Shown here: positions 38,755-61,209 of the stretch, one piece after another
How positions within the stretch are numbered: position 1 is the stretch's first letter
Layout: each line of letters opens with the position of its first letter
Assembly: GCF_000940805.1 (NCBI RefSeq)
Contig: NZ_CP007142.1
Location: forward strand, 310,001-374,000
DNA: 64,000 nt
Direction: 5' to 3'
Origin: Gynuella sunshinyii YC6258
GTDB lineage: Bacteria > Pseudomonadota > Gammaproteobacteria > Pseudomonadales > Natronospirillaceae
Position numbers and translations under genes: made by a program
The notes under the pieces: generated by a model
What the model saw: only the letters and a program-made list of their open reading frames with translations
Told to the model about the DNA's origin: nothing
Database searches by the model: none

Positions 38755-40119
38755 ATGACAATCAGGATAAAAACAAAGCTATTCATCAGTCATTTTCTTG
38801 CGATTATTCTCGTTTCCGGAAGCATCGGTAGTTACTTTTATCAAAGTGCAATCGATAATCTCAAAGAAAGTCTGCGCTCCCGACTGATGTACAGCGCCGC
38901 ATTATTAAGTAATAACTTCAATTCTGAAGAACTGGAATTACTACAAACAGCCTCTGACACTGAGCGCCCTGAGTATCATAAAAATATTCAGTATTTAAGA
39001 CAGCTGACAGCTTCAAATCCTGATATTGCATTTATATATGTCATGCGCCTTGATGATGGGGTGCCTAAGTTTGTCATCGATTCAGACCCGGAAAAGCCCG
39101 CCGCTCCTGGTGAAATCTATAACCAGACAATTCCCGAATTGATGGAAGGCTTTCAAAGTGTCAGCGTTGACAAGCAAATTACCGTGGACAAATGGGGGAG
39201 CTTTCTGTCCGGTTACGCTCCTATCAGAAGCCGAACAAATCCATATCTTATTGGCATTGATATGCGTGCCGATGAGGTCCAGGCAAAACTGGCGGACTTG
39301 AAGCAGAAAGCCGTGTTGTCATTGATTGTTTCTTTTATTTTTGCGTATGTATTCAGCATGTTCTTATCCAAAAATCTGGTTAAGCGTATGGATGTCCTTT
39401 ATCGACGCTGTATCGAGGAAGGCGCACTGAAAGAGAACATCAAAATGGAAAAGGGGGACGAACTCGATCAACTCTCAAATACCTTCGAATATATGATCGA
39501 GCACATGCAACACACCCAGAGTGATCTCGAAACTCTGGTGGAGTCGCGCACCTGGGCGCTACAAAACGCCAATCAGGAACTGGAACTCGAAATTTCCGAA
39601 CGCAAAAAAGCCGAAGCGGCCCTTAAGATCGCGGCCCGTACCGACTATCTGACCGGTTTGATCAATCGTCGGGAAATGGTCGAAATGTTGCATCGGGCTG
39701 TTGATGATTATTCGCGTTTTCAACGGCATTTTTCGGTTGTGCTGGTTGATATGGATAATTTCAAGAACATCAATGACAGCTTCGGTCATGATGTGGGCGA
39801 TGAAGTGCTTAAGGCCATTGCTGAAAAAATGCAAAGCCTGTTACGTACTCAGGACACAATTGCTCGATGGGGGGGCGAAGAACTTTTGATACTCATGCCA
39901 GATTTCAAACGCGAAGAGGCCATGCAGCAAGCTGAACGTATTCGTGTTCATCTTGAACTATCAACTTTTCAGGCTCGACAATTTGCACTTCAGGTGACCG
40001 CCAGTTTCGGCGTTGCTGAGTTCGATGCGGCCCAGGAGATTGATGCTACACTGAAGCGAGCGGACATCGCTCTGTACAAAGGCAAGGAAAAAGGCAGAAA
40101 TTGCGTCGCAAGCGAATAG
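38755..40119 (+). CDS. membrane diguanylate cyclase (GGDEF)
   Basis: The protein has 454 residues. A membrane segment (about 8-29), a periplasmic sensor region (about 30-182), a second membrane segment (about 183-203), a HAMP-like helix pair and a coiled coil (QTLVESR-type, about 255-292) lead to a C-terminal GGDEF domain. The active site reads GGEEL at 373-377, an accepted active variant, and the inhibitory site RxxD is present at 364-367 (RTQD), so product inhibition is expected. It should make c-di-GMP in response to a periplasmic signal. It lies just before the polysaccharide genes. The ATG at 38755 lacks a good ribosome site. Confidence 0.9.
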   Translation: MTIRIKTKLFISHFLAIILVSGSIGSYFYQSAIDNLKESLRSRLMYSAALLSNNFNSEELELLQTASDTERPEYHKNIQYLRQLTASNPDIAFIYVMRLDDGVPKFVIDSDPEKPAAPGEIYNQTIPELMEGFQSVSVDKQITVDKWGSFLSGYAPIRSRTNPYLIGIDMRADEVQAKLADLKQKAVLSLIVSFIFAYVFSMFLSKNLVKRMDVLYRRCIEEGALKENIKMEKGDELDQLSNTFEYMIEHMQHTQSDLETLVESRTWALQNANQELELEISERKKAEAALKIAARTDYLTGLINRREMVEMLHRAVDDYSRFQRHFSVVLVDMDNFKNINDSFGHDVGDEVLKAIAEKMQSLLRTQDTIARWGGEELLILMPDFKREEAMQQAERIRVHLELSTFQARQFALQVTASFGVAEFDAAQEIDATLKRADIALYKGKEKGRNCVASE

Positions 40120-40380
40120 AAGCACCTGACAATGCCAGGGAGAAGATATGGGTATTTGATACCGACAATCAGATCAGTAGATGGTTCAACAGGAAGATAA
40201 CCACCTATGACTAAGCATTTGTCATGAAACAGTATTAGTGTGACTTGATATTCAGATTGACCTGTTAATTAAAGATTTTTGTGTATTAAAATTTGAGATC
40301 GAGATAGCAAATTTCAATAAATCTGCTTGAAATCACCTGTTTTAATTAAATTTGATTCCACCATAGATAGATTTGACTGT
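40120..40380 (+). other. AT-rich gap before the first polysaccharide genes
   Basis: No gene is seen in these 261 bases. The sequence is strongly AT-rich from about 40240 on, suitable for a promoter of the downstream operon, but no pair of hexamers was convincing by eye. Confidence 0.3.
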
Positions 40381-41916
40381 ATGGAAGAGCTGGCTCAACA
40401 ACCTTTAAATATCCAGAACTACATAGCCGCGCTGCGGCGTTATAAATGGTATGTGGCCATTGCTATTATCATTTTCACCACTATTTCCGTCGCTGTTGCC
40501 GTTATCATTCCTCCTATTTACAAATCGGAAGGTCTGGTGCTGGTTGAAACCCAACAGATACCGGATAAATTAATTCAATCAACCGTTGAGGCCAGTGCTG
40601 CTGAGCAAATCGAAATCATCCGTCAGCGGGTTATGACCAGAGAACAGCTGTTGGATGTCGGCCGGCAAATGCCTGCACTGAAAGCTATTGAAGATCAGTA
40701 TGGTAGCAATACGCTGTTAAAACAGATCCGTGATAACCTCTATATCGAACCCATTCGTGAACGCAGTGGTCGTGCTAATGTTACAATTGCCTTTAAGCTT
40801 GGATTTATTTCTGAGAATCCTACATTGGCGCAAAAGGTTGCTGAAAACCTGATCAATCTGTTTCTCAAGGAAAATATCAAAGCTCGCACTGAGCGAGCAT
40901 CTCAGACGACGGCATTTCTTGAACAGGAAGCCTCGAAGCTGAAAAAACGCCTCGATGAAACTGAGCAGGCCATCGCCAAATTCAAACAGGCTAACCAGGA
41001 TGCATTACCAGAACATTTGCAATTGTATAGCTCTTCTCTGGCTCGCGAAGAATCAACCGCCCTCGACCTGAAGCGCCAGATTGAAAGCATCAAGGGTGAA
41101 ATCGAATACCTGACCTTACAGCAAACCGACAGCGGTCAGACTAGCCCGGAGCAGATCCGATTGGCTGAGTTGAAGGATGAATACAAACGTTTGAGTATTA
41201 TTTATCAGCCCGCTCACCCAGATCTGATCGCGATCAAAGACGAAATTGACTATCTTGAGCGTGGTGGAACGCTGTCGGATTCAGGGTCAACGTCTCCTGA
41301 ACAAGCTTCTCAGAAAGCGCTCCAGGAAAAAATCAACGCCAGAAATGAAGAGCTCAAACTGGTTCAGGAACAGCTGAGAACGACCAATATCAGAATTTCC
41401 AGCCTGGAATCCAAGATCATCAAAATTCCTCAGGTGGAAAGAGAGTTGATATCTCTGAATCGCGATTATGACACGATTAACTCCCAGTACTCCAAACTGG
41501 TGTCTGACACGATGCAGGCACAGATGGCGGAAAGTCTGGAACAGGGCTCAAAAGCCGAAAGGTTTACCCTGATTGACGCACCGCGCATACCAACAGAAGC
41601 ATTTGCCCCAAATCGCAAGAAAGTCCTTGCGGCCGGCCTGGCAGGGTCTTTCGGAGTACCACTGGGCATTATTCTGTTGATCGGCTTTCTGGATAAGAGC
41701 ATCCGTGGCACCGAGACTCTGGAAGCAACTCTCGGATTTCCACCGCTCATTGCCATCCCATATATACACACCGACGCAGAACGCCAGCGAACCAAACGGC
41801 ACAACATATTCATGATAGGAGGTTTGGTTGTGATTGCCGCACTCGCGGCAATGACGATACACCTCACTTATATGCCATTGGATTTATTACTGACTAAAGT
41901 AGTACAACGTTTTTAG
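40381..41916 (+). CDS. polysaccharide co-polymerase (Wzz/GNVR chain-length determinant), first copy
   Basis: The protein has 511 residues from ATG at 40381; the longer frame starts with TTG. An N-terminal membrane segment (about 24-45) follows the ALRRYKWYVAIA pattern of Wzz proteins. A long periplasmic domain with coiled-coil helices (about 190-370) leads to a PxxP-like region before the second membrane helix (VLAAGLAGSFGVPLGIILLIGF). An unusual third hydrophobic segment sits near the C-terminus (IFMIGGLVVIAALAAMTIHL). It controls polymer length and export together with the kinase gene next to it. It resembles exosortase-associated chain-length proteins in size and context. It lacks a fused kinase domain. 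Confidence 0.88.
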   Translation: MEELAQQPLNIQNYIAALRRYKWYVAIAIIIFTTISVAVAVIIPPIYKSEGLVLVETQQIPDKLIQSTVEASAAEQIEIIRQRVMTREQLLDVGRQMPALKAIEDQYGSNTLLKQIRDNLYIEPIRERSGRANVTIAFKLGFISENPTLAQKVAENLINLFLKENIKARTERASQTTAFLEQEASKLKKRLDETEQAIAKFKQANQDALPEHLQLYSSSLAREESTALDLKRQIESIKGEIEYLTLQQTDSGQTSPEQIRLAELKDEYKRLSIIYQPAHPDLIAIKDEIDYLERGGTLSDSGSTSPEQASQKALQEKINARNEELKLVQEQLRTTNIRISSLESKIIKIPQVERELISLNRDYDTINSQYSKLVSDTMQAQMAESLEQGSKAERFTLIDAPRIPTEAFAPNRKKVLAAGLAGSFGVPLGIILLIGFLDKSIRGTETLEATLGFPPLIAIPYIHTDAERQRTKRHNIFMIGGLVVIAALAAMTIHLTYMPLDLLLTKVVQRF

Positions 41917-41932
41917 TGGAGCATTGATTGTA

Positions 41933-42670
41933 GTGGCACATTCAGATAAGACAGCCTCATCGATAAAGAACATTGAGTACACGCAAACTAAAATTTTGCC
42001 TGTTTCAGCCGATAAGCTGAGAGCTAACAGAATCGTTGCTCATGACCCAACGGATCCCAACGCCAGTTTGTTTCAGGTACTCAGAACCAAGGTGCTTCAG
42101 GAAATGCGCTTAAACAACTGGAACACTCTGGCAATTACCGCCCCGACACCTGGCGCCGGAAAATCGATGATTTCTGTGAATCTGGCGATCAGTATTGCCA
42201 TGGAAGTCAATCAAACAGTTCTCCTGGTCGACATGGATTTTCGCAAACCCTCTATCCACAAATATTTTTCGGTCAAACCCAAATATGGTTTACAGGATTG
42301 TCTGCAAAGCGGTGTTCCAATAGAGGATGTGCTGTTTAATCCGGGCTTTAATCGTCTGGTGGTATTACCTGGCAGACAGGGAATTATGAGTTCGTCTGAG
42401 CTGATATCATCGCCGGAATCGACTCAGTTAATCAGGGAATTGAAAGAAAAATATGATCAGCGACTGGTCATTTTTGACCTTCCACCCTTGTTTGTTTCAG
42501 ACGATGTTATGGTATTTCTACCAAATGTTGATTGCTCTCTGCTAGTCGTTGAAAGCGGTAGAAACAATAAGGATGAAGTACAGAAATCTGTCGAGCTGCT
42601 AAAGTCCAAACCCCTGTTGGGTACGGTTTTAAACAAGGAAGCGGTATCCCAGAAAATCTATTTTTATTAA
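41933..42670 (+). CDS. BY-type tyrosine kinase / CpsD-like ATPase
   Basis: The protein has 245 residues if started at GTG 41933; TTG 41924 is an alternative, and GGAG lies at 41918-41921. Walker A is TPGAGKSM, Walker A' VLLVDMDFRKPS and Walker B LVIFDLPP, the complete bacterial tyrosine kinase set. The C-terminus ends IYFY, a minimal Tyr cluster for autophosphorylation. It would be activated by the adjacent co-polymerase and control exopolysaccharide assembly by cycling phosphorylation. It follows the Wzz gene by 16 bp. Compare the homologue at 54918-55700, which lost the P-loop lysine. Confidence 0.87.
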   Translation: MAHSDKTASSIKNIEYTQTKILPVSADKLRANRIVAHDPTDPNASLFQVLRTKVLQEMRLNNWNTLAITAPTPGAGKSMISVNLAISIAMEVNQTVLLVDMDFRKPSIHKYFSVKPKYGLQDCLQSGVPIEDVLFNPGFNRLVVLPGRQGIMSSSELISSPESTQLIRELKEKYDQRLVIFDLPPLFVSDDVMVFLPNVDCSLLVVESGRNNKDEVQKSVELLKSKPLLGTVLNKEAVSQKIYFY

Positions 42671-42768: not shown

Positions 42769-43476
42769 ATGATCATATCTGTGTTTTTGCAAGGTATACG
42801 TCCAGGCTGTCGCTTTGTGTCTATGCTGTACATTGCATTATTGTCTGTGATTTTACTCAGTGCCTGCGTATCAAACGAGCCCGTCGTCAATGCTGCGACC
42901 GACTCACAGCCACAACCTCTGCTATCCGGTCCTCAGGTTGCCAGTACGATTTCCGAAACGTACACCATTGGAGTCGGCGACACATTACAAATTGATGTAT
43001 GGAAAAACCCTGAATTATCCCTGTCAGTACCCGTCAGACCGGATGGAAAAATCTCAATGCCGTTAATCGGCGATATCCTGGCAGCCGGGCTCACCACTGA
43101 AGAACTGACCAGCTCCATTACCGACTCATTGAAAACCTATCTAAAACAGCCTCAGGTTTCTATTATTGTCACCAACCCATTCAGTGCAGAATATCAAAGA
43201 AGAGTACGTATCAGTGGAGCAGTGGGAACACCACTTTCCATCCCATTCAGAAATGGAATTACGGTTCTTGATCTGGTACTACTGGCAGGCGGTACGACAG
43301 AATATGCCAATGGCAATGCCGCAAAACTGCACAGAACAATCGATGGTGTTCTGACGGTTTACCCAATACGTCTGGAAGATATTCTGACCAGGGGGGATCT
43401 GAAAACAAATTATGCACTGATCCCATCAGATATTGTTACCGTACCAGAGAAGTCATTTTTCAGCGGTTCCCAATAA
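42769..43476 (+). CDS. polysaccharide export lipoprotein (Wza-like)
   Basis: The protein has 235 residues. A lipoprotein signal with lipobox LLSAC (about residues 28-32) is somewhat long; a start at an internal Met (MLYIALLSV) would give a normal length. The mature part has the Poly_export domain (YTIGVGDTLQIDVWKNPELSLSVPVRPDGKISMPLIGDI) and one SLBB domain (VRISGAVGTPLSIPFRNGITVLDLVLLAGG). It is shorter than Wza (about 380), as are exosortase-associated export proteins. AGGA precedes the start. It would form the periplasmic or outer-membrane portal with the beta-barrel protein encoded downstream. Confidence 0.9.
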   Translation: MIISVFLQGIRPGCRFVSMLYIALLSVILLSACVSNEPVVNAATDSQPQPLLSGPQVASTISETYTIGVGDTLQIDVWKNPELSLSVPVRPDGKISMPLIGDILAAGLTTEELTSSITDSLKTYLKQPQVSIIVTNPFSAEYQRRVRISGAVGTPLSIPFRNGITVLDLVLLAGGTTEYANGNAAKLHRTIDGVLTVYPIRLEDILTRGDLKTNYALIPSDIVTVPEKSFFSGSQ

Positions 43477-43588: not shown

Positions 43589-44833
43589 ATGCAGCAGATA
43601 ATTAAAACAATCACTTTGTTGTCCCCATTAGTGCTGATTCTGGCAACACCCAGCCTGCAAGCCAGAACCAGCGTTAACAGCTCAATGAGTATTGGGGGGT
43701 ACTACATTCAGTCCGATCAGGACGACCAGGAAGAGAGCAGTTCAGGAAATGTTGCGGAGCTTTTGATCGGCATTAATTCCGAAGGCAATCGTTATCAGCT
43801 TAACTCGCAATACAGTGGCAATTATGTCGTTGATTATGAAGCTGACCGCTCTAATTTTTTAGCCATCGGCTCAACCAGTCTTACCCTGGGCAATCCCGCC
43901 CGCAACTATGGTCTGCGATTCTTGCACTCCGCCAGACAGGTAAATCAGAATGACACTCTGGACCCTCTGGATCTCGACTTTACCAACACGGTGAGCGTCT
44001 CACCTTTTGCAGGCTTTGAAGTGGGCCGAAGGACCAATCTGGATGTCTATTCCCGTCACAGCTTTTTATGGAATGTAAATGAAAAGCTGAGTGCCCGTGA
44101 CAATCGATTGGGTACTAACCTGGTACACAATATTTCAGACACACAGAGCACCAATCTGCTATACCAACTCAACTATAATGAGAGTTTAGGTGATAACGCA
44201 GACAATACTCTGATCCATTCTGTTCAGGCGGGCTGGCAACGCCAATCCAGGAAGTTGGAGACCTCTGCATATATTGGTTTCGACTTTACTGATTCTGATA
44301 ACAGCGACGATACCAAAATTATCACCTTTGGATTACGTGAACGCTATCAAGATACAGACTATTCCTGGTCACTGGGATTTCGCCGCGGTGTGACTACAGA
44401 ACTACTGGAAACCACCGAAACCAATACCACTGATACCGATACCGAGAACTACCGCAATACGGTTGTGGAAGATCGCCTGACCGCAGAATTCAACTCAACT
44501 ATTTTATGTCGCGCCTGCCAACTCAGCAGCAGCGTCATTGCCATTCGCAGCAATGACTACGATGCCAACGACAAAGACTCCAACCTGCTGTTCAACCTGG
44601 GACTGGAACAACGGCTTCGGTCAGATACCTCTGTTCAATTGAGGTATCAAAGTGCTTTGGATTATGCGGGCAGCTGGTTCTACGACCAGATATCAACACG
44701 AAACACGTTTGGTGCCGGCTTACGCTATGTGTTTACCCGTAAGCTGTCAACCAGCCTGAGTACCGATTATGCGATAGAGGATGGAGATTCTCAGTTGATC
44801 GCAACTTTGAGTCTGGCCTATTTGTTTTATTAA
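43589..44833 (+). CDS. outer-membrane beta-barrel protein of the polysaccharide locus
   Basis: The protein has 414 residues. A signal peptide (cleavage near SLQA/RT) is followed by repeated amphipathic beta strands with alternating aromatic residues (YQLNSQYSGNYVVDYEADRS, YGLRFLHSARQ, NLLYQLNYNES). It ends in LSLAYLFY, the terminal aromatic typical of barrels inserted by BamA. The length and place after the Wza-like gene match the putative outer-membrane proteins of exosortase-type exopolysaccharide loci. Role as an export channel or anchor is inferred. A strand loop carries an odd CRAC pair (LCRACQLSS). Confidence 0.8.
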   Translation: MQQIIKTITLLSPLVLILATPSLQARTSVNSSMSIGGYYIQSDQDDQEESSSGNVAELLIGINSEGNRYQLNSQYSGNYVVDYEADRSNFLAIGSTSLTLGNPARNYGLRFLHSARQVNQNDTLDPLDLDFTNTVSVSPFAGFEVGRRTNLDVYSRHSFLWNVNEKLSARDNRLGTNLVHNISDTQSTNLLYQLNYNESLGDNADNTLIHSVQAGWQRQSRKLETSAYIGFDFTDSDNSDDTKIITFGLRERYQDTDYSWSLGFRRGVTTELLETTETNTTDTDTENYRNTVVEDRLTAEFNSTILCRACQLSSSVIAIRSNDYDANDKDSNLLFNLGLEQRLRSDTSVQLRYQSALDYAGSWFYDQISTRNTFGAGLRYVFTRKLSTSLSTDYAIEDGDSQLIATLSLAYLFY

Positions 44834-53320: not shown

Positions 53321-53385
53321 AAATGACTGCAGTCAGCTCCTGTGGTCGTGTTGTATCAACAAAAGGAATTTCTGGAAATGACGCT

Positions 53386-54900
53386 ATGACTTCTACACTC
53401 CTCTTACTCCCAAGATTTTTATGGCAGGAAAGCGTGCGTCTGCGATGGTGGATTTTCCTGTGGATCCTGCTGGCATCCTTAACCACACTGCTGGCTTCTC
53501 AATTCTGGCCCTATCAGTTTCAGGCATCTTCTGGATTACGTCTTGAGCAGCGTAACCTGGATATTCTCTTTGGTGATATTAATGCAGAGAATGGCAGTAG
53601 CGAGCCATGGGATTTCACCCTTGATGCTCGTAAAGATTTATCTGCCCCTCCTGGTGATATTGACACTCAATTGATGGACAGAGAAGAAGACCGTCAGTGG
53701 CTCGACAATATCACTCCTGAGCAATGGAATCATATTCTGGACCTGACCAGCATAAACCAATTGGACGAAAATACTCTGCAGCTACTGGTCAGAACCAACA
53801 CCAGAGATGCAGCCAGACATACTTCCCGCATTTTGGTGCAATTGCTATCTCACCGTTTCAATGCCGAAATCAACCAGAGAGTTGCCAGCCACATCAATTA
53901 CATTGACTCTCAGGTCAAAGCCTATGAAGCCAAACTCTCAACTGCCGAAAACGAAATGAAGGACTTCAAGGTCAGTAATACTGGCTATTCTGATCAAAGC
54001 AATACGCTTACGAACCAACATATTTTGCAGCTGGAGCAGAATATCGAGAAGGCCCTCAGCGATTTGTCTGATCAATCGGTACGAATGCGTCTGCTGGACG
54101 AACAGCTAACCGAAGGCAGTGTGGCCTATCAAAATCTGATTGGCTCAGAAGAGTACAAAACACCCAAAGCCCAACAACTCGAACAGCAGATTACAGACCT
54201 GAACCGGCGCATACAGTCACTGGCCAGTGTTTATAAAGAAACCTATCCTGAGCTGATAAAAGCCAGAGAAGAGCTATCTCTGGCACGACAATCACTGGCA
54301 ACAGAACTGAAAACCGGCAACAGTTTTAACGCCAATCCATATGTCATTGACTTACGCCGGGAACGAGCCCGTCATGCTGCGGAAATCGAGAGCCTGAAAA
54401 ACCGCATTGCCCAAATGCGTCGTCAGTTGAACGAAGAAACGAAACGCGTGGCCACGTTATCTGAAGCCGGACTGAAACTGCAGGAACTGCAAAGAGATTA
54501 TGATGTTAACAGGCAACTTTATGAAAAATTTTTGGCCCAACGCGAAAATATCCGGATTACTTATGGAGCATTGCAGATTATCGGTGCCGCTACAGTGCTG
54601 CCACCTGATCCATCGCTAAACCGTACGGTAGGCGTGAACAGCGCTATGATCCTGCTAACCGGCACTCTAGTCACTCTGCTACTGCCAGTATGCATGCTAA
54701 TTATTAAAATTTTGTTTGATGCACGCCTCAGAACAATTGATCAGGTATGGCAATTGGGTTTTCGGGTACTGGCGTCCGCTCCGGTGTATAAAACATCGGC
54801 ATTAAGGTTAAAAAATGTTATGTTTTTAGTATTCCTGGCACTCGCATTGGCCGGAATAATCTATGGATACTGGTTCCAATATCTGCATCTGAGCAGATAA
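53386..54900 (+). CDS. polysaccharide co-polymerase (Wzz/GNVR-like), second copy
   Basis: The protein has 504 residues from ATG at 53386; the longer in-frame start at 53323 would abut the repeat element. An N-terminal membrane segment (about 21-40, WWIFLWILLASLTTLLASQF) is followed by a periplasmic domain with a long coiled-coil part (about 180-380) and the GNVR-type LQRDYDVNRQLYEKFLAQRENIRI. A membrane helix near residue 430 comes next, with another hydrophobic helix at the C-terminus (NVMFLVFLALALAGIIYGYWF). The layout parallels the first copy at 40381-41916, but the sequences differ widely. It is the first gene of a three-gene set with a kinase-like protein and an ATPase. Confidence 0.82.
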   Translation: MTSTLLLLPRFLWQESVRLRWWIFLWILLASLTTLLASQFWPYQFQASSGLRLEQRNLDILFGDINAENGSSEPWDFTLDARKDLSAPPGDIDTQLMDREEDRQWLDNITPEQWNHILDLTSINQLDENTLQLLVRTNTRDAARHTSRILVQLLSHRFNAEINQRVASHINYIDSQVKAYEAKLSTAENEMKDFKVSNTGYSDQSNTLTNQHILQLEQNIEKALSDLSDQSVRMRLLDEQLTEGSVAYQNLIGSEEYKTPKAQQLEQQITDLNRRIQSLASVYKETYPELIKAREELSLARQSLATELKTGNSFNANPYVIDLRRERARHAAEIESLKNRIAQMRRQLNEETKRVATLSEAGLKLQELQRDYDVNRQLYEKFLAQRENIRITYGALQIIGAATVLPPDPSLNRTVGVNSAMILLTGTLVTLLLPVCMLIIKILFDARLRTIDQVWQLGFRVLASAPVYKTSALRLKNVMFLVFLALALAGIIYGYWFQYLHLSR

Positions 54901-54917: not shown

Positions 54918-55700
54918 ATGGTCAGCAAACTCGAAAAAGCCATATTGAAAGTTCAGGATGAGCACAACCAGATTGTGACCGAGGCCGAACAGATATACCT
55001 GGCTAACGAAACTGAATTGCAGGAGATGTTTGAACCGTTTCTGTTGTCTGAGCGTCAACTCGACAAGATGAAGTTGATTTATGGCGATATGTATGACCAG
55101 TCACAACTGAAACCTTATGTGGATGCAGCCTATCAGATCAGACAACAGGCCAAAGCCCGTTTTTCCCAATCTGTGCTGGTGACCTCGTTGGGTGGTCGGG
55201 CAGGCACTTCACACGTTGCCAGAAATCTTGCCATAGCATTACGAATGGACAAAGCACACTCGTCATTGCTGGTTGATATGAATATGGACCGACCTTCATT
55301 ACAGCCGTTCTTTGGACTGGAGGGAAAACTGGGGCTGGCGGAATTTCTGGCCGATGAAAGCATTATTGCCAGCGATCTTATTTTTCCAGTGGGCATCAAA
55401 CGCCTCAGGTGCATTACTGCCGGAAACTCAAGAGCAGTTGATACTGCCCACTTCCAACATCCGCGAATTCATGTTTTATTGAATCATATCCGCGGGCGCT
55501 ATCGGAACCGTGATATCGTCATAGATGCTCCACCGATTACAGAAGATGCAGGAACCAAAATACTATTAGAGCTCTGTGATAAAATCATCATCGTGGTCCC
55601 TAAAGGGAAATTCACCGGCGATCAACTGGCCAACGCCACAGCCATGATCCCACCGGACCAGCTGGCAGGCGTATTCTTTAATGAATTTCCGGCCTCTTAA
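54918..55700 (+). CDS. tyrosine-kinase-like ATPase homologue with degenerate P-loop
   Basis: The protein has 260 residues. The fold is that of CpsD/BY-kinases: Walker A' SLLVDMNMDRPS and Walker B DIVIDAPPI are intact. The Walker A region, however, reads SLGGRAGTSHVARNLA, where the catalytic Lys of GKS is replaced by Thr; the preceding signature Lys of MinD-type loops is also absent. No C-terminal Tyr cluster is present (ends FFNEFPAS). It may therefore bind nucleotide weakly or not at all and act as a regulatory partner of the second co-polymerase. It has an N-terminal helical extension of about 85 residues. It follows the co-polymerase gene by 17 bp. Confidence 0.78.
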   Translation: MVSKLEKAILKVQDEHNQIVTEAEQIYLANETELQEMFEPFLLSERQLDKMKLIYGDMYDQSQLKPYVDAAYQIRQQAKARFSQSVLVTSLGGRAGTSHVARNLAIALRMDKAHSSLLVDMNMDRPSLQPFFGLEGKLGLAEFLADESIIASDLIFPVGIKRLRCITAGNSRAVDTAHFQHPRIHVLLNHIRGRYRNRDIVIDAPPITEDAGTKILLELCDKIIIVVPKGKFTGDQLANATAMIPPDQLAGVFFNEFPAS

Positions 55701-55718: not shown

Positions 55719-56711
55719 ATGTATTTAAAACATTTCAAACTGAAACGTCATCCCTTCCAGATGAAACCGGATGATGACTTTTTATACATGAGCAGCCAGC
55801 ACTCACGCGCCCTCGTTTTCATGGACTATGCCGCCTGGAATCCGGAAGGCTTTGTGATTATCAGTGGAGAAATCGGATCTGGAAAAACCACACTGGTGAA
55901 GCGCCTGTTACGCAACTACCAGGGCAAGGTGAATAATTTTCACATCGCCTATACCAATCTGGAAAGTGCAGAACTGTTTTATTACATGACCAAACAGGCC
56001 GGCATTCAGATTACAGATCAAAACAAAGTCACCATGCTGTACGCACTGAACGACTTTCTGAAAGAAAAAACCAAGAACGGAACACCATTTGTTCTGGTCA
56101 TTGATGAGGCTCAGAACCTGACTCAGGCCAACCTCGAAGATATCCGGTTGCTGGCCGGACTGGAAGGCCTGAACGGGCCAATGTTAAAAGTCGTTTTACT
56201 GGGCCAGCCGGAATTACAACTCAACGTTAATCGGGTCCCCCAATTACGACAGCGGGTAAAACTGCACTATCACCTTAACGGGCTCGGTGAAGAAGAAACC
56301 AAGGGATATATTGAGTACCGACTCAAAATTGCCGGCCTGACACGTAATCTGTTGTTTGATGACGCAATGATCAAGGTGATTTTTCAATATTCGAGAGGCA
56401 TCCCAAGGCTGATCAATAAAATATGTGATGCTTTATTGATGTGCGCCTTTGCCGACGAGCGAAAAAAACCCATGATCAGTGACCTGGATGACGTTCTGGA
56501 CGAACTGATGCTGGATGAACCCGTCAGCGACCCGGAACAGGAACCGGCAGCGTCTGTTGAAGAAGTCAACAATGCGGGCACGCAACCCATAGCGGCTGTA
56601 CCGGCCACTATCGATATGGAACAGATAAGCGGTTATCTTGAAAGAATTGCCAAAGCGCTTGAAGGCATAGAACGCAAAATAGATGTATTGGCTAAAGAAC
56701 GACATTACTGA
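55719..56711 (+). CDS. AAA ATPase of exopolysaccharide/PEP-CTERM type (ExeA/GspA-like)
   Basis: The protein has 330 residues, opening MYLKHFKLKRHPFQMKPDDD, the normal start of ExeA/GspA-like and exosortase-system ATPases. Walker A is GEIGSGKTTLVKRLL, Walker B FVLVIDEAQNL, and sensor and lid regions (QLRQRVKLHYHLNGL, YSRGIPRLINKICD) follow. An acidic linker (about 265-295) leads to a short C-terminal coiled coil (YLERIAKALEGIERKIDVLA) in place of a peptidoglycan-binding domain. Such proteins accompany chain-length and kinase genes in exosortase-type exopolysaccharide loci; their exact role is unknown. It lies 18 bp after the kinase-like gene. Confidence 0.85.
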   Translation: MYLKHFKLKRHPFQMKPDDDFLYMSSQHSRALVFMDYAAWNPEGFVIISGEIGSGKTTLVKRLLRNYQGKVNNFHIAYTNLESAELFYYMTKQAGIQITDQNKVTMLYALNDFLKEKTKNGTPFVLVIDEAQNLTQANLEDIRLLAGLEGLNGPMLKVVLLGQPELQLNVNRVPQLRQRVKLHYHLNGLGEEETKGYIEYRLKIAGLTRNLLFDDAMIKVIFQYSRGIPRLINKICDALLMCAFADERKKPMISDLDDVLDELMLDEPVSDPEQEPAASVEEVNNAGTQPIAAVPATIDMEQISGYLERIAKALEGIERKIDVLAKERHY

Positions 56712-58416: not shown

Positions 58417-61089
58417 TCAGTGAACCCGTTCGATGGTGGAGGCAGGTTGATAATTATAGTGTCTGAGCAAATTTAGAATTTCTGAAGCCGGCAGCGGCTG
58501 ACTGACCAGATATCCCTGTGCATAATGACATCCCTGATCTTTAAGAAACTGTAGCTGTTCATTATTCTCGACGCCTTCAGCCACAACCTCCATCGACATA
58601 CTGTTTGCCATGGCAATAATCGCTTTAATGATGGCCGTGTCACCAGCACCTGATGCCTGGCTATGCAAAAAAGACTTATCAATTTTAAGGACATCGATTG
58701 GCAACTTCTGCAGATAACTGAGAGACGAATAGCCAGTTCCAAAATCATCGAGAGCTATTTTGGTGCCAAGTGCATGCAGACGGTTCAAAGTGTTAACACT
58801 GTGATCCATGTTTTCAATCAGTACACTTTCTGTCAGCTCCAGTTCGAGATACTCCGCCGGCAGTTCAGAAGTCTGTAATATATTGTAAATCGAGTCATAC
58901 AAACCCTCCTGCCGCAACTGATGACTGGAGAGGTTGACCGAGACCCGGATGTTACCAAAACCCCGTTGCTGCCAGACACTGGCTTCATCGCAGGCCTTAT
59001 ACAACACCTGTTCACCCATGGCATTGATCAGACCAATTTCTTCAGCAATAGGAATAAAATGCTCCGGCTCAATCAAACCCAGAGACTGGTGATGCCAGCG
59101 GACTAATGCTTCCACCGAATCAATACGCCCGGTCATCAGATTCAGTTTGGGCTGATAATTGACCGACAATTCATTTTCAGCAATGGCTCGGCGCAAAGAT
59201 TTTTCCAGCTGTAACCGGTCAACGGATGTCTGTTTAAAGGTTTTTTGATAATACTCGTAGGTATTGCCACCCTTGTGACGTGCACGGTTCAAGGCAATAC
59301 TGGCCTGATTCAATAACTGATGCCGGTTTTGTCCGTCCAGAATCGAAACACCGATACTGGCGGTAACAATCAGTTCGTGTTCATCCGCCAGCACCGGGCG
59401 ACTGATTTCCACCAAAATGTTGTCCAACAGGCGATTCAGCTTATCGCGGGAGCCAAAAAACTCAGCAATCACCACAAACTCATCACCACCCACTCTGGCG
59501 CAAAACGCCGACGGACTTGGCAGATTGGTAATACGGGAGGCGATATCTTTCAACAACAAATCACCGGTTTCATAACCAAGACTGTCATTGATCGCCTGAA
59601 AGCGGTCGAGGTTGACCACCACAATCGCAAGTGAATCCGATGCAGCCTGCGGATTCTGCAGATGACGATTCAGTACCTGGTGAAAATGACTTCGGTTAGC
59701 CAGCCCGGTTAACTTGTCATAGTTGGACAGATAATCAATCTCCACCTGCGAGCGTCGCATCTCTGTCATATCGGTACCGATGGCAATATAGTGGCTCAGC
59801 TGACCATTGCTGTCGAAGATACCATCAATGCGACATTTGAATGGAAATGACTCTCCGTTATAGCGTTTTTCCAGAATCTCACCCTGCCAATAACCCTTAT
59901 GATTTAAGCTCGACATCACCAGATAAGCCTGCGGCGAGGCACTGATACTGGTAAAGGGTTTATTGACCAGTTCGGCACGATTGGCATTCATGATCCGGCA
60001 ATAAGCGGGATTGACGGACTGGACAATAAAGTCATAACTCATGACGAAAATAGCATCATCAGAGTGATTAAATAAACTTGCCGCCAGGCTTAGATCCTGT
60101 TCGTGGTTGACTTCGCTGGTCACTTCACGACGGGTGCCGATCATGCGGGTTACACGCCCATGTCGATCACGCTCAACCGCACGCCCCGTATCCTCAACCC
60201 AGATCCATCCCTGTCCGGAATTGTTCTTGACCCGATAACGGACCCGATAACTAGTCGTTTTTCCTTTCAGGTGTCGAAATAACTCTGCTTTAGCCTTCTG
60301 ATAATCTTCAGGATGCACCCAGTCCACATAGTCATACTCACCCGTAACATCTCTTGGCGGTACCAGCCGGCTCCCCTCAGTCAGATACGTTTCCCGGCTT
60401 TGCACATTCCAGTCCCAGATCCCCATATCACTGGCGCTGATGGCCATTTGCAGCCGTAACTGACTGCTTTCGAGATCCCGGGTTTTGAGCACATCTCGTT
60501 CTTCCAGTTTGTGATTCAGATAATGCACCAGCTCACGATCCATGATCAGGCGGGATGAAAGCTGACTGGCGCGATAAACTGCCGCGATCGTTATCAAGTA
60601 AACAATGGCCAGCACCGCGACAATCAGTGAGTCTGCGGTACCGGTTGTGGCACGGATATAAACACTGGCAAAGGGGATTACAAAGGCAATGAACAGACGA
60701 AAACGTACAAACAGCATGACACCGGAAAGCATCACCAGAACATTGATCATCAGCAAGGTAACCAGTTCTGGATTGCCAACCCACAGGGGCGGTAATGTAA
60801 AAACGACTCCCTGGAGAAAAAATATCAGCGCCAGCTGGCGCTCGATATATTGATAACTGACTTCAGAAGGGGATTGCTTCATCCATTGCCGGGCAGCTGC
60901 CATCAGATAAGCACTCAACCCTGCAATCGTTAACCACCAGACAGACAGCCACAACAGGCTCAACTCGGGCAGATAAACATAACCCGCGCACAATCCCACA
61001 AATAACATGCCGCCTGCGTGCCGGGGTAATTCCTTGAAAATCATCCGATAAAACTCTGTAAACGCCTTGGAAGAACTGGTCGCTGTCAT
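58417..61089 (-). CDS. membrane PAS-GGDEF-EAL c-di-GMP signalling protein
   Basis: The protein has 890 residues from ATG at 61087-61089; a TTG start at 61134 cannot be excluded, and no good ribosome site is seen for either. About six or seven hydrophobic segments fill residues 20-190, followed by two PAS/PAC modules (about 200-440). A GGDEF domain with intact GGDEF (near residue 533) and an EAL domain with EALVRWHH (near 659), DDFGTGYSS, DVLKIDKSF and VVAEGVEN complete it. Both synthesis and degradation motifs are intact, so it may be bifunctional or biased by its PAS input. It is monocistronic, opposite uvrD. Confidence 0.9.
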   Translation of the reverse strand: MTATSSSKAFTEFYRMIFKELPRHAGGMLFVGLCAGYVYLPELSLLWLSVWWLTIAGLSAYLMAAARQWMKQSPSEVSYQYIERQLALIFFLQGVVFTLPPLWVGNPELVTLLMINVLVMLSGVMLFVRFRLFIAFVIPFASVYIRATTGTADSLIVAVLAIVYLITIAAVYRASQLSSRLIMDRELVHYLNHKLEERDVLKTRDLESSQLRLQMAISASDMGIWDWNVQSRETYLTEGSRLVPPRDVTGEYDYVDWVHPEDYQKAKAELFRHLKGKTTSYRVRYRVKNNSGQGWIWVEDTGRAVERDRHGRVTRMIGTRREVTSEVNHEQDLSLAASLFNHSDDAIFVMSYDFIVQSVNPAYCRIMNANRAELVNKPFTSISASPQAYLVMSSLNHKGYWQGEILEKRYNGESFPFKCRIDGIFDSNGQLSHYIAIGTDMTEMRRSQVEIDYLSNYDKLTGLANRSHFHQVLNRHLQNPQAASDSLAIVVVNLDRFQAINDSLGYETGDLLLKDIASRITNLPSPSAFCARVGGDEFVVIAEFFGSRDKLNRLLDNILVEISRPVLADEHELIVTASIGVSILDGQNRHQLLNQASIALNRARHKGGNTYEYYQKTFKQTSVDRLQLEKSLRRAIAENELSVNYQPKLNLMTGRIDSVEALVRWHHQSLGLIEPEHFIPIAEEIGLINAMGEQVLYKACDEASVWQQRGFGNIRVSVNLSSHQLRQEGLYDSIYNILQTSELPAEYLELELTESVLIENMDHSVNTLNRLHALGTKIALDDFGTGYSSLSYLQKLPIDVLKIDKSFLHSQASGAGDTAIIKAIIAMANSMSMEVVAEGVENNEQLQFLKDQGCHYAQGYLVSQPLPASEILNLLRHYNYQPASTIERVH

Positions 61090-61209
61090 ATTCTGATGCT
61101 GATCATAATTCGCGAATTCGGTTAGCAGGTGCAACCTGATAAAAGATGTCTGGTACTATTAGCAGATTAAACCAATTCTGAAATCCAGCAAGGAACCTAA
61201 GCCAACTTT

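Follow-up and report, generated by a model that had tools for sequence, protein, structure and literature searches.

The three-gene set and its surroundings

The gene studied here lies in a stretch of 64,000 nucleotides, hereafter the window, which corresponds to bases 310001-374000 of a 6.48 Mb genome assembled as one contig. It runs on the forward strand from an ATG at 54918 to a stop codon at 55700 and encodes 260 aa without internal stops, in keeping with the intact frame reported in a preliminary description of this DNA. Reading frame, family match, alignments, trees and structural model identify the product as a homologue of bacterial tyrosine (BY) kinases, most likely a pseudokinase. 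Among named families it scores best with TIGR03018 (XrtA-associated tyrosine autokinase): 125.2 bits, which is below the cut-off of 230.65.

The tight three-gene set with a second co-polymerase (PCP) that had been described before was recovered, with gaps of 17 nt to the PCP gene upstream and 18 nt to an ATPase gene downstream, all on the forward strand. The PCP (53323-54900, 525 aa) scores 137.5 bits with its best family, the chain-length determinant model TIGR03007 (cut-off 278.85), and 20.1 bits with GNVR, also below cut-off, and no kinase domain was matched within it in Pfam or NCBIfam. The AAA ATPase (55719-56711, 330 aa) has an intact P-loop, GSGKTT, and scores 277.1 bits with TIGR03015, below the cut-off of 324.5. 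Near the set are glmU (identified by reading), a HAD hydrolase gene, glmS and galE.

The first co-polymerase of the region (40327-41916, forward strand; TIGR03007 244.3 bits, below cut-off) is followed on the same strand by a Lys-bearing paralogue of the pseudokinase (41924-42670) with the motifs GAGKS and DMD and the tail YFY, which scores 170.2 bits with TIGR03018, again below 230.65; by their adjacency the two are presumably partners. A polysaccharide export (OPX) protein is encoded at 42769-43476, forward strand, identified by TIGR03027 (194.2 bits, over cut-off) and by PF02563 in a genome scan. It is the only one found in the region, and a further export-type match occurs at 5.74 Mb in the genome. 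The gene after it (43589-44833) encodes a protein of 414 aa that looks outer-membrane-like by eye and matches none of the NCBIfam models at E 1e-10. A GGDEF protein (38755-40119) and a GGDEF-EAL protein (58417-61134) flank the polysaccharide genes, which hints at c-di-GMP control.

The closest copy of the 54918-55700 product, at 49% protein identity, comes from a metagenome-assembled genome (MAG) labelled Gynuella sp., which like the window's genome has two PCPs and one export protein in the region. The ATPases of the two genomes are 67% identical and the PCPs only 27%. The same MAG holds a second Lys-less kinase-like gene (L086:619-1338), which belongs to an EXP-PCP set and lies roughly 9 kb away from the other. 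Between the two copies of the pseudokinase gene, differences at codon positions 1, 2 and 3 amount to 0.44, 0.24 and 0.62, which in sequence comparison is the pattern of a constrained protein, and a pattern of this type was found in all three genes of the set. Four-fold sites within identical residues differ at 0.60; as silent sites are close to saturation, no dN/dS is given.

Degenerate active site in a BY-kinase fold

The P-loop of the product reads GGRAGTSH (residues 92-99; 55191-55214, forward strand). As had been proposed, Thr97 stands on the Lys position: it aligns with the Lys of GAGKS in the paralogue and with that of Lys-bearing relatives. The preliminary description had also raised the question of a lysine elsewhere in the loop; the alignment contains no displaced Lys there, Arg94 being the sole basic loop residue. 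A sequencing slip behind Thr97 is unlikely, since the closest relative carries Val at this site. The earlier statement that Walker A' and B remain holds for the first A' Asp (D120) and for the Walker B Asp203 (55524-55526, forward strand), while the second A' Asp is replaced by Asn122 in the remnant D120-M-N122 (55275-55283, forward strand); among relatives that bear the Lys, 44 of 45 have Asp at this position. The reported lack of a C-terminal Tyr cluster was borne out, the product ending in NEFPAS without Tyr, compared with KIYFY in the paralogue.

According to the accessible parts of PMC3795738, the octamer interface of CapB is formed on one half by an EX2RX2R motif and on the other by the Tyr cluster. 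The three motif positions are Lys65, Val68 and Ala71 in the product, with the site of the Arg pair at Val68 to Ala71 (55119-55130, forward strand), where Arg is kept in 104/112 and 109/112 Lys-less members. On the aligned sequences, both halves of the CapB-type ring interface are absent from the window protein. The Gynuella MAG copy has Ala and Ser at the two Arg positions. In the Lys-bearing paralogue, too, Gln replaces the first of the two RxxR arginines, so RxxR loss alone is no pseudokinase marker. Compared with an active BY-kinase (CapB/Wzc), the product thus has the fold and the Walker B Asp, and is without the Walker A Lys, the second A' Asp, the Tyr cluster and EX2RX2R.

An AlphaFold2 model built from a four-row alignment reached a mean pLDDT of 76.4 and a pTM of 0.77, with residues 1-40 mostly unreliable. 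Its best structural matches were CapA1B1 (Z 23.2 over 201 residues) and the Wzc kinase domain (Z 23.0 over 206), followed by MinD/FlhG types at Z of about 16; the modelled product has a BY-kinase fold. CpaE/TadZ proteins carry an N-terminal receiver-like domain. Such a domain is absent from the model, in which the first alpha/beta strand starts at residue 85 and is preceded by helices and low-confidence stretches.

A Lys-less clade of kinase homologues

A search with the 54918-55700 protein gave matches at E 0.001 in 58/96 related genomes, and within the same taxonomic family matches at E 1e-30 or better in 2/22. Genomes sampled at the level of order, class and phylum were then searched with a clade profile made from 22 Lys-less proteins, which reached at least 200 bits in 80/390, 23/369 and 9/398 genomes, respectively; the window's genome is present in all three samples and other genomes recur between them. 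Every genome above 200 bits in the phylum sample belongs to the same class as the window. The next matches scored 185 bits or less. Five divergent Lys-less proteins (L140 and L142-L145), in which the Lys site is taken by Ser, Pro or Val, lie at 178-185 bits; as they fall under 200 bits and the A1 model was itself made from Lys-less proteins, the gap in bit scores is no clean test of membership. L140 and L144 were included in the trees and fall within the Lys-less clade.

Before residues were counted, ORFs were dropped if they were 450 aa or longer, scored no more than 80 bits with the A1 model or duplicated another in their last 180 residues, and an 812-aa frame (G1102/L149) stands outside the counts. 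This left 157 distinct kinase-like proteins from the collected loci, 112 in a Lys-less and 45 in a Lys-bearing group. Lys is absent from the aligned site in 111/112 members of the former, the exception being L053 (9969-10844), which lies inside the Lys-less clade and has displaced Lys residues (GKKST) in an enlarged loop, KAKGKKST. The site is occupied by Ser (38), Ala (26), Gly (24), Thr (14), Asn (3), Val (3), Pro (2) or Cys (1) in the other 111 proteins of this group, and by Lys (43/45) or Arg (2/45) in the Lys-bearing group. Conservation of the Thr, which the preliminary description had proposed to look at, was therefore not found: it is one of eight residues, in 14/112. Both Arg-carrying proteins (L078:3449-4432 and L081:9757-10632) are of the Lys-bearing type, and in each case the ATPase gene comes next downstream.

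The other active-site positions differ between the groups as well. The second A' residue is Asn in 92/112 Lys-less proteins versus Asp in 44/45 Lys-bearing ones; the first A' Asp is kept in 106/112 Lys-less proteins, with Glu in the remaining six. Asp of Walker B is found in 91/112 (Asn, His or Ile in the other 21) versus 45/45, and a tail without Tyr in 106/112 versus 8/45 (Tyr being present in 37/45). Among the proteins in which the Walker B Asp is also missing are L050, L052, L054, L056-L062 and L064, which read VINAPP, VIHAPP and similar.

Trees were built from kinase alignments without the P-loop columns. Thinning of rows at 62% identity or more left 98, and in the tree of these the 61 Lys-less rows form a single clade together with L053 (SH-aLRT 99). 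For a careful tree 42 of these rows were drawn, the Lys-bearing ones at random and the Lys-less ones partly by hand; the draw is without L206, L207 and L208, two of which form long or very long branches in the larger tree. The Lys-less split received 100/99 and was recovered in 200/200 bootstrap trees. The window protein, the MAG copy and L205 group at 96/94 in this tree, and all three have a downstream ATPase gene, which in L205 is separated by one gene and in the other two is directly adjacent. A fast tree of 95 of the PCPs that belong to the 98 rows is split along one branch by the Lys state of the kinase, with a local support of 93; in this tree the PCPs of the window and the MAG are flagged as long branches, which may have been joined artificially. 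Lys is presumably ancestral, as it is general among P-loop NTPases; the trees carry no outgroup.

A private Lys loss in 54918-55700, as the preliminary description had implied, is therefore rejected: the state belongs to a clade spread across the class, and being common to a clade it excludes chance as the source of the Thr97 state. Three marks set the lineage of the window protein apart in sequence comparison: RxxR is lost, the ATPase gene is kept, which is rare in the clade, and a Lys-bearing paralogue lies 12 kb off. At loci with at least 4 kb of downstream sequence, an ATPase gene occurs within 4 kb in 4/63 Lys-less cases versus 17/21 Lys-bearing ones; L205, a fifth Lys-less case, has a short flank and was excluded from this count. 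That an ATPase gene next to a Lys-less gene is confined to Gynuella was considered and rejected, as it lies directly 3' in L204 and one gene further in L205 and L211.

Exosortases are found near Lys-less relatives of 54918-55700. The Lys-less loci L041 and L031 both contain a TIGR03013 glycosyltransferase and a TIGR03006 deacetylase over their cut-offs, and L041 also TIGR03019 over cut-off. A tie of the clade to exosortase W was dropped, since XrtA was the better-fitting model than XrtW for the exosortases scanned; the XrtA-model scan covered 11 of 27 exosortase-like ORFs and gave 141 to 209 bits at eight Lys-less loci (cut-off 208, one just over) and 333 to 343 at three Lys-bearing ones. No exosortase or phosphoglycosyltransferase gene was found beside the three-gene set in the window. 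The genome has only one distant exosortase match (49 bits), at 5.53 Mb, and encodes its two phosphoglycosyltransferases outside the window, at 0.73 and 3.35 Mb, so the set seems detached from the rest of a typical XrtA-type locus.

Function and comparison with known systems

We consider the 54918-55700 product likely to be a BY pseudokinase, the separate cytoplasmic subunit of a two-part PCP-2, which would scaffold the PCP with no phosphorylation step, in the manner published for EcpK and HfsB. The gene is probably a retained structural partner, neither an enzyme nor decaying. The preliminary reading is upheld in so far as it saw a retained non-catalytic homologue, and set aside as to a local Lys loss and a full Walker A'. 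The pseudokinase would bind its putative partner by adjacency, the PCP whose gene lies 17 nt upstream, on the cytoplasmic side, and may aid PCP assembly or function in exopolysaccharide production through protein contacts, with no Tyr phosphorylation. The Wzc octamer is driven to disassemble when the Tyr tail is phosphorylated, according to the accessible parts of PMC11986026 and PMC8285477; without such a tail, the window protein would be unable to use a switch of this type. As both known ring contacts are gone, it would not build the usual kinase octamer by itself, and it would fall to the PCP or the downstream ATPase to determine stoichiometry and turnover.

The kept D120 and D203 (106/112 and 91/112 in the group) would be dispensable in a pure scaffold, and these acids lend some weight to a nucleotide-sensing switch, in which ATP or ADP is bound through the remaining A' and B acids without phosphotransfer and the bound state alters the grip on the PCP. 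In the accessible parts of the published work, Wzc and CapB retain ADP after mutation of the Lys to Met, so Lys loss alone is compatible with nucleotide binding. However, the second A' Asp is gone in the window protein and in most of the group, and replacement of the Walker B Asp in 21/112 means that binding is no clade-wide need; we regard a switch of this kind as unlikely. Somewhat more doubtful is an elaboration for the Gynuella lineage, in which the pseudokinase is an adaptor that links the PCP to the AAA ATPase, whose ATP cycle would drive PCP assembly and disassembly in place of the phosphorylation cycle; an ATPase-driven co-polymerase would then operate beside a kinase-driven one, the two sharing one export protein. 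That some residual kinase activity uses another residue for the Lys, such as Arg94, is very improbable. The Arg at the Lys position of L078 and L081 gives it a precedent of sorts, but Arg94 is three residues off and not conserved in the group, and the Tyr tail and the second A' Asp are lost.

The presence of both sets in one window of one genome raises the question whether the product instead regulates the Lys-bearing paralogue 12 kb away, with mixed complexes tuning that kinase. A role of this sort has been proposed for inactive CapB1 beside active CapB2 in the accessible parts of PMC3795738. A protein search of the Gynuella MAG genome, however, found no Lys-bearing family member, both members found being Lys-less, and 17/34 genomes with a Lys-less member are without a second match at E 0.001. 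The latter is a weak point, as a follow-up with TIGR01007 gave further matches in 18/18 single-match Lys-less genomes; the 14 such loci inspected comprised seven MinD-like, three FlhG-like and four unclear cases, among the last G041 and G051 as possible BY-kinases. On balance we hold such regulation to be improbable. Decay of the gene after its locus lost function in this genome would agree with the missing exosortase and phosphoglycosyltransferase genes beside the set and with the mere 27% identity of the window and MAG PCPs, yet the frame is intact, the codon pattern of all three genes is of the constraint type, and identities to the MAG reach 49% for the protein and 67% for the ATPase. Decay is thus hardly credible, and the earlier preference for a kept non-catalytic role is endorsed by the open frame, the 0.44/0.24/0.62 pattern and the Lys missing in 111/112.

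So far, demonstrated or argued cases of co-polymerases that work without Tyr phosphorylation come from few organisms; a pseudokinase clade in 80/390 genomes of one order would make them common, and the model name "autokinase" would then mislead for many database entries. Lys-bearing and Lys-less sets 12 kb apart in one genome would also permit a comparison of both modes within a single cell. Pairs of a BY pseudokinase and a PCP-2 are already known. The new part appears to be the Gammaproteobacterial Lys-less clade of XrtA-type loci, of which no report was found in the open-access literature. No title or abstract there concerned Lys-less XrtA-type kinases; a 2009 PCP survey cited in PMC12004946 may list members. 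The accessible parts of the Haft 2006 PEP-CTERM paper (PMC1569441) have no mention of "ATPase" or "Walker", and their kinase passages concern a histidine kinase.

By its family match the product resembles the TIGR03018 XrtA-associated autokinases, which are its best-scoring named family and have neighbours of the TIGR03007 and TIGR03015 types, but it scores under the cut-off and has neither the Lys nor the Tyr tail. Staphylococcus aureus has a comparable pair within one genome, CapB1/CapB2, of which one BY-kinase-type protein is inactive and the other active; in the accessible parts of PMC3795738, however, CapB1 crystals were obtained with ADP-Mg, and impaired oligomer formation, not loss of the P-loop Lys, is the tentative explanation for the inactivity of this protein. 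The remaining two comparisons draw on the accessible parts of PMC12004946 and concern likeness of features. HfsB of Caulobacter crescentus is a stand-alone BY pseudokinase with a PCP-2, HfsA, for whose stability it matters; unlike the window's set, the pair belongs to the holdfast pathway. EcpK of Myxococcus xanthus, with the PCP-2 EpsV, is a published BY pseudokinase scaffold that acts without phosphorylation, and the window protein shares with it the stand-alone BY-kinase fold, the lack of the catalytic Lys and of the Tyr tail, and a PCP-2 without a kinase domain of its own. EcpK has no Walker motifs and a charged C-terminal helix, whereas the window protein keeps D120 and D203 and adjoins an ATPase gene.
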